A stretch of DNA of 35,616 bases. It comes from Metallosphaera yellowstonensis MK1 (lineage in GTDB: Archaea; Thermoproteota; Thermoprotei_A; Sulfolobales; Sulfolobaceae). Shown here piece after piece: positions 16,094 to 30,229 of the stretch. Every line of letters starts with the position of its first letter. The stretch's first letter is position 1. Below the pieces are notes generated by a model. The model ran no database searches, was not told the DNA's origin, and saw only the letters and a program-made list of their open reading frames with translations. Where the stretch lies: the NCBI RefSeq assembly GCF_000243315.1, contig NZ_JH597761.1, positions 651,207 through 686,822 of the forward strand, given 5' to 3'. The position numbers and the translations under genes are program-made.

Positions 16094-16334
16094 TTTAGAA
16101 GTTGATCTTACGCCTACCGCCTACGACGAGACGGAGGTTGGACTCTCCGTAAAAATTTAGTTCCTAAGCAGGTCAAACTCGTCCTACCTCTCTCACATGA
16201 AGCTCTCGTTATCCCTCAATGAGGATAAGACACGGGAGGAGTCTCCCAGACTTAGATCTCATCCCTAAAGAGAAGTTTAGGTCACGGGAAGAGGAGTCAA
16301 CATAAGTTTTTACCTTAGGCGAGTAAAGTCACTC

Positions 16335-17096
16335 ATGTCAGAGGAACCGGCTAGGAAGCTACTGGCCGACGAGGAGTTCATAGGGAAGATCGTGGAGAAG
16401 GTCTACGACAAGCTGAGGAACGACGAGCTATTGAGGAGGGCCGACGAGATCCTTAAGACGATCAGAGAGAGCGTGGGGAGGATAGAACGGATCGAGGAGG
16501 AGAACAAGAGGATCTGGCAGGAAATACAGAGCACCAAGGAGGAGATCAAGCGGATCAACGAACGGATAGAACGGATCGAGGAGGAGAACAAGAGGATCTG
16601 GCAGGAAATACAGAGCACCAAGGAGGAGATCAAGCGGATCAACGAACGGATAGAACGGATCGAGGAGGAGAACACCCGCATATGGAAGGAGATCCAGAGG
16701 ATGAACGTATCCTTCTCAAGCTTCACCTCCCGGGCCGGTCATTACATCGAGAGGACCATCATGGAGTTGTACAAGGAGGCGTTATCGTTACACGGAATCG
16801 ATCCGTCAGCAGTTAAACACGCCACCATAGTTGACGAGAAGGGAGTGGTCAGCAAGGGGCGAAAATACGAGGTGGACTTCTATGAGACCGACGACGCCAT
16901 ATACGTCTTTGAGGTGAAGAACTTCGCCGACGAGGGAGCAGTGGAGCAGTTGGAGATCAGGGAGAAGGTTTTCCGGTCGCTCTACCAGAAGCCCGTCAGG
17001 CTGTTCCTAATAGCCAACAGTATTGAGAGACAAGTCAAGGAGACGGCCGAGAGCGTGGGGATCACAGTTATAGCAGGCTTAGTAGTGGAGGACTGA
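16335..17096 (+). CDS. Coiled-coil PD-(D/E)XK nuclease-like protein
   Basis: This is a 253-residue protein. Residues about 40-130 are a long coiled coil built from two exact copies of a 28-residue unit (RIEEENKRIWQEIQSTKEEI with flanks) plus a partial third. The C-terminal domain has RKYEVDFYETDDAIYVFEVK (Asp in EVDF, then Glu-Val-Lys), the D...ExK core of PD-(D/E)XK nucleases, followed by FLIANSIERQVKETAE. It resembles the DUF3782-type proteins widespread in crenarchaea, whose function is unknown. The exact 84-nt DNA repeat behind the coiled coil suggests recent expansion. It converges with the ligase gene 93 nt away. Confidence 0.85.
   Translation: MSEEPARKLLADEEFIGKIVEKVYDKLRNDELLRRADEILKTIRESVGRIERIEEENKRIWQEIQSTKEEIKRINERIERIEEENKRIWQEIQSTKEEIKRINERIERIEEENTRIWKEIQRMNVSFSSFTSRAGHYIERTIMELYKEALSLHGIDPSAVKHATIVDEKGVVSKGRKYEVDFYETDDAIYVFEVKNFADEGAVEQLEIREKVFRSLYQKPVRLFLIANSIERQVKETAESVGITVIAGLVVED
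16481..16674 (+). repeat. 84-bp tandem repeat inside the coiled-coil gene
   Basis: Units 16481-16564 and 16565-16648 look identical base for base, and 16649-16674 begins a third that diverges after GGAGGAGAACA. The 84-bp unit equals 28 codons or four heptads, so the frame and coiled-coil phase are kept when units are gained or lost. Confidence 0.9.
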
Positions 17097-29733: not shown

Positions 29734-29874
29734 TACTCTATGTCAATTACGGGCGAAGTGGCTGTAACTCGACTCCGCGGTCAACCGGTAACTGGTAAGT
29801 GAGTTTGAGTATAACTCTACTCAGATAGGATTTATTGGAAAATCCCTTGATGGGAGGTCATGAAAGCTTTTTAG

Positions 29875-30229
29875 ACAGCAATTATTGGAATCTTAGGGAG
29901 GTAATACGAAAAAGCCGGTATTAGCGAGAAGTTTTTCGACGTCGTCCCGCTGAAAAGGTGCGGAAAGGGACAGATCGAGTTGGCTAGGGAGAGGCAGTCA
30001 GGGAGATCAACAGGCTGGGCGTGGTCAGGGGGAAGGGGAGGAGCAGGAAGGTTAATTGGCCTGATCCTCATGGTCCTGATCAACGGGAGGGCCAGAGTCG
30101 TCAGGGAGCTGGTAGGGGAGCTTAACCTGGGGAGCGTGGAGGTGTTCCTCAGGCTCTCGGGCGCCGTTTAGGCTGACCACCTGGGCTGATGAAAATCTTT
30201 AAGTTACGTTAAAGTCCCATAACTGCTGG
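29875..30229 (+). mobile_element. Internally deleted IS derivative (355 bp)
   Basis: Both ends of the IS are present (ACAGCAATTATTGGAATCTT at the left, AAAGTCCCATAACTGCTG at the right), but ~800 bp of transposase have been lost. The 5' part (CGGKGQIELAR...GRSRKVN) is joined within INGRARVV directly to the C-terminal RELVGELNLGSVEVFLR. It cannot move by itself but keeps both termini, so it is a non-autonomous derivative. It lies between the acyl-CoA dehydrogenase gene and the acryloyl-CoA reductase gene. Confidence 0.85.

Follow-up and report, generated by a model that had tools for sequence, protein, structure and literature searches.

Stalks in a multi-copy archaeal family of nuclease-like proteins gain and lose length seven residues at a time, whereas the N-terminal segment in front of them and the nuclease domain behind remain in place. 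An exact 84-bp tandem repeat in the window (the whole stretch of 35,616 nucleotides of Metallosphaera yellowstonensis MK1 DNA that was analysed) is one example of a family-wide archaeal habit of repetition within these stalks and not an isolated accident. We consider it probable that an elastic, register-bound and length-tolerant oligomerising stalk is being turned over in this DUF3782-type PD-(D/E)XK family, and that the repeat is the most recent step that can be seen.

The window gene and its exact array

The array lies in a 253-aa ORF on the forward strand (16335..17096), in which an N-terminal segment is followed by a coiled-coil stalk and a PD-(D/E)XK-like domain, as judged from the ORF listing, a DUF3782 match and a structural model of mean pLDDT 88.8. 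TRF reports an array with a period of 84 bp and 2.3 copies (16480..16674, same strand as all features below; 100% match, score 390). Comparison at a shift of 84 gives a single unbroken 111-bp identity run, which places the start at 16480, one base ahead of the 16481 given in the first-pass annotation; the two identical 28-codon units and partial third that it described were otherwise recovered. Unit 1 (16480..16563) and unit 2 (16564..16647) are the same at every base, and the third unit continues for its first 27 bp (16648..16674) before diverging. The array is in frame, with the 28-codon unit RIERIEEENKRIWQEIQSTKEEIKRINE occurring twice before the third begins. Read from the sequence, the unit consists of four heptads (I-E-R-I-E-E-E, N-K-R-I-W-Q-E, I-Q-S-T-K-E-E and I-K-R-I-N-E-R) with Ile in most of the a and d positions. 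The array scores 112, against a maximum of 102 in 200 synonymous-codon shuffles encoding the same protein, and a chance origin is therefore excluded. Across 435,616 bases of its own genome, made up of the window and 20 spread stretches of 20 kb, it is the top array among a total of 15 TRF rows, and just one further perfect array reaches 60 bp. The assembly is a draft in 21 contigs, in which the copy number could be a collapsed value.

Upstream of the ORF, the stretch 16302..16334 is common to the window and its nearest relative, L035 (289-bp alignment from 16302, 84% identity), and is likely to be the promoter. Residues 1-48 (16335..16478) are predicted by the model to be mostly helix. The model, an alignment-based monomer (41 sequences, A1; pTM 0.48), shows one helix over residues 13-152 and, after it, a beta-rich fold flanked by helices, with pLDDT of at least 90 from about residue 30 to 120. 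The PD-(D/E)XK-type fold (residues 136-249, 16740..17081) most closely matches EndoMS/NucS (5gke_A, Z 10.7, 103 residues aligned, rmsd 3.0), followed by AF1548, Can2 (Z 8.3), Cdn1 and Card1 (Z 7.9); Foldseek gave a match to 2vld_B (E 8.7e-4). The candidate catalytic residues D181, E193 and K195 (16875..16919) form a triad that is intact in 62 of 67 aligned members and broken only in L004, L043, L060, L073 and L075. The PD-(D/E)XK domain placed behind the repeat by the first-pass annotation is thus supported by both the predicted fold and the D...ExK active residues, and DNA cleavage by an oligomer would be the likeliest activity given the EndoMS-like fold. Both the oligomerisation of the stalk and the nuclease activity are putative, suggested by the sequence together with the monomer model.

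DUF3782 (PF12644) matches residues 97-172 (E 1.5e-6), and the score of 28.7 bits passes the Pfam curated cut-off of 24.4 but is weak beside the 77-102 bits among the phylum-wide matches listed. The own-genome paralogue L002, at 24.3 bits, falls just under the cut-off. The ATK nonad/beta-layer motif, which defines the alpha/beta coil and not the Pfam entry, is absent from the four heptads of the window unit, whereas the canonical DUF3782 members L159-L166 do carry it. Matches of the coil in PADLOC, Pfam and NCBIfam were set aside as unspecific helix matches, and PDB sequence searches returned unrelated coils only. A weak and unusual PADLOC match of another member (L031, residues 1-151) to C3a181, labelled diadenylate cyclase (42.5 bits), is probably coil-driven.

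Stalk repeats and stalk length across the family

Matches at E 0.001 or better were found in 29 of the 31 genomes of the window's family, Sulfolobaceae, with several paralogues per genome. From 74 sources, 68 ORFs with the nuclease domain were taken, excluding the duplicates L001 and L034; two were too short for the repeat test, leaving 66, some of which are fragments or contig-edge pieces (for example L036 and L061), and L026 and L048 were both counted though 99.96% identical over 2301 bp. The collections comprise one genome per species, and the variation seen is that between species and between paralogues. Among close relatives the N-terminal part aligns well and the stalk behind it varies. 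No viral, phage or plasmid relatives were found. A stalk-less homologue of the nuclease domain, of 137-140 aa, is present in 10 of the 31 genomes (L167-L176, in G022, G023, G017, G015, G011, G016, G012, G013, G014 and G005) and was not found in the window's genus. By eye, all ten sequences have the D and E of the triad replaced and the K kept; they resemble a conserved pseudo-nuclease that might serve as a regulator.

Tandem identity in frame was scored along every stalk and set against that in 200 within-gene synonymous-codon shuffles, which leave the protein unchanged. Repeats above all 200 shuffles were found in 47 of the 66 members (41 of these score at least 60) and no such repeat in the other 19. 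The recurring units, near-identical in DNA and 14 to 70 residues long, differ from member to member. Their periods are multiples of 7 aa in 44 of the 47: 28 aa (11 members), 35 (10), 21 (8), 70 (5), 63 (3), 42 (3) and 49 (2), with 14 and 56 seen once each. The three that break the rule, 25, 29 and 53 aa, also seen once each, are those that heptads plus hendecads would yield. The window array ranks 26th of 65 members by score, and the strongest, in L031, has an exact 21-residue unit in 8.6 copies. Among the relatives and paralogues compared, the unit varies and so does the copy number, which the first-pass annotation had said could vary; the fixed number with synonymous divergence in all relatives that would have spoken against its idea was not seen.

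The repeats are far less marked in the coils of Rad50 from 30 of the 31 genomes, where 4 of 30 lie above all shuffles with a maximum score of 57, against a median of 88 in the nuclease family. Nonad-type DUF3782 stalks from the same family of genomes exceed all shuffles in 5 of 8 cases, with periods that are not heptads but 9, 9, 18, 22 and 31 aa (L166, L162, L165, L159 and L160), and the repeat step therefore appears to track the stalk's fold. Canonical DUF3782 loci were also sampled phylum-wide as the best-scoring loci, a choice that may have disfavoured long arrays. With a motif filter, 19 of 30 loci could be tested in a first pass, 5 of them above all shuffles; a second pass, with no filter and four contig-edge loci excluded, tested 26 of 30, with 1 above. 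The discrepancy reflects the edge loci L153 (the one strong case) and L154, which were excluded from the second pass, in which L138 and L139 were equalled or beaten by 2 and 1 of 200 shuffles. The broad DUF3782 family shows the habit rarely, yet not never. A literature search, mainly outside subscription journals, found no account of DNA-level heptad turnover in DUF3782-type nucleases.

Stalk length was compared in pairs with at least 80% nuclease identity. Of 75 such pairs, 74 could be usably aligned at the N-terminus; stalk length is unequal in 66 of them, and in 65 of the 66 the difference is a multiple of 7 aa. Since these pairs share members, disjoint pairs were chosen best first. Of the 17 obtained, all but one are unequal in stalk length, and for 15 of those 16 the difference is an exact multiple of 7 aa (binomial P ~3e-12, given every remainder equally likely); the sixteenth differs by 46 aa. 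In L022 and L024 the nuclease proteins are identical, with 7 silent changes in 360 bases, and the stalks differ by 21 aa; L067 and L068 differ by 84 aa in the stalk and by two nuclease residues. Furthermore, L023 and L047, from the same genome, have no differences in 366 bases of nuclease DNA and stalks that differ by 14 aa and in unit order. The rule is not clean near the window, where the nearest relatives (52-67% identity) differ by +56 (L006), -2 (L005) and +40 aa (L007) and only L006 fits. Rad50 behaves differently, with equal length in 10 of 10 pairs at 60% identity or above; at 40% or above, length is equal in 12 of 61 and never differs by more than 20 aa.

In two comparisons, units of one gene resemble each other more closely than they resemble those of a relative, and the recent duplication or homogenisation proposed in the first-pass annotation from identity at synonymous sites agrees with this. 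The 35-residue units of L022 and L024 are 0-1 base apart within either gene and 3-4 per 105 between them. For the window and L035 the within-gene difference is 0-1 and the between-gene difference 3-5, the window units being identical to each other and 5 of 84 bases off those of L035. Independent re-duplication would look the same as gene conversion here, with few informative bases. The L035 contig stops at the base where the window's copies start to diverge, like a fork in a short-read assembly. A third copy in the window's genome, L003 (G000:C16:1-1897), has a nuclease domain 3 of 363 bases from that of L002; its contig starts at the stalk end, probably an assembly break at a repeat.

No neighbours are conserved: when the 1.5-kb flanks of L005-L008 and L033 were compared with the window, only the gene itself matched. 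Homology between paralogues also stays close to the gene, extending upstream by about 70 bp and downstream by about 40 bp for L023/L047, and by about 44 and 96 bp, respectively, for L009/L040. Because homology hugs the gene and the nearest relatives share no neighbours, the stalk-nuclease genes look, at the sequence level, like short dispersed cassettes. Elsewhere in the window, 1986-2869 and 29856-30008 match ORFs near the paralogue L002 (51-92% protein identity) and are likely remnants of a dispersed element.

Explanations for stalk turnover

In the mechanism that we favour, copies would arise and be homogenised when similar heptads slip or recombine unequally in frame, and selection would discard any that disturb the helical register. 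The stalk would bind subunits together and bear the nuclease, accepting almost any length. Slippage between existing heptads could account for the multiple-of-7 rule, as could selection on register, or the two together. The first-pass annotation had instead suggested that unit number could determine how far the nuclease domain lies from the dimer contacts. We give such a molecular ruler very little probability, although the array does lie within one predicted helix of 140 residues, behind a helical N-terminal segment and ahead of the nuclease, and whole-heptad steps would preserve the orientation of the head. Members that keep the active residues have stalks of anything from 100 aa (L019) to 391 aa (L072), and nucleases at least 93% identical carry stalks that differ by 7 to 98 aa. 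Such a range does not support a precise ruler, and an elastic, register-bound stalk accounts for the data better. Least probable of all is that the repeat is pure mutational noise or an assembly artefact at the window locus alone. The draft state of the genome and the halt of the L035 contig exactly at the repeat fork would be expected of an artefact; however, the own-genome paralogues L002 and L004 have exact repeats of other sequence (84 and 87 bp), and many of the arrays seen across the family lie in single-contig genomes (L031, L022 and L006), so draft assembly does not explain the arrays.

It is also conceivable, if rather unlikely in our judgement, that the number and order of heptad units act as a code for self-recognition, with each copy assembling only with itself or with a matched inhibitor, or being released or inhibited by a matched partner alone, and with variation favoured, as proposed for the helix repeats of Rpn. 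The available passages on Rpn offer a precedent, in which one added repeat breaks inhibition by an unmatched partner (PMC10327210). The presence of several paralogues per genome and the L023/L047 pair, with its identical nuclease DNA and reordered units, are in keeping with such a code. Paralogues with equal stalks are absent from 57 same-genome pairs, but only 0.44 would be expected by chance and the comparison has no power. A separate stalk-only partner was not found in a search that was not systematic, and no gene-within-gene start is evident, a Met lying near the domain start in only 29 of 63 members. If the code were real, copying, loss and reordering of units would keep near-identical nucleases of the same cell apart, and the Rpn helix code would have an archaeal counterpart with long repeats. 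Whole-heptad length change beside a near-constant enzyme provides a natural series for studying the effect of coil length, the protection of register and whether repeat number can serve as a recognition code in nucleases.

Comparison with known systems

The C-terminal domain of the window protein resembles EndoMS/NucS, its best fold match, but the match spans residues 136-249 only and leaves the stalk outside. Rpn nucleases are of the PD-(D/E)XK type. As far as the passages available from the two sources go, the window family is like DUF3782 endonucleases in carrying its nuclease domain behind a long N-terminal coiled coil, and like Rpn in that a nuclease has a putatively oligomerising helix that varies by whole in-frame repeats. 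The crenarchaeal DUF3782 PD-(D/E)XK endonucleases are described with an alpha/beta coiled-coil stalk, and their nuclease-less relative Tcar0761 with 14 nonads in near-perfect repeats; the solved Tcar0761 stalk construct, fused to GCN4 adaptors, is a trimer (PMC4786415). In contrast, the window stalk is built of heptads, without the MATKDD-type beta-layer motif, and its DUF3782 score is low. Neither turnover at the DNA level nor a change in stalk length is taken up in the passages of that paper. In Rpn, the corresponding passages describe four-residue helix repeats whose number varies among strains (PMC10327210); these repeats are C-terminal and lie in a separately translated antitoxin, whereas here the units are of 14-70 aa and N-terminal, with no evident inner gene. 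Rad50 and the synaptonemal complex proteins share with the window family a long coiled coil in a DNA-related protein. Length is conserved in the synaptonemal complex coiled-coil proteins, according to the part of the source available (PMC8598163), and, as measured here, in Rad50, unlike in the window family; the long coils of DNA-handling machines can thus keep a strictly constant length.
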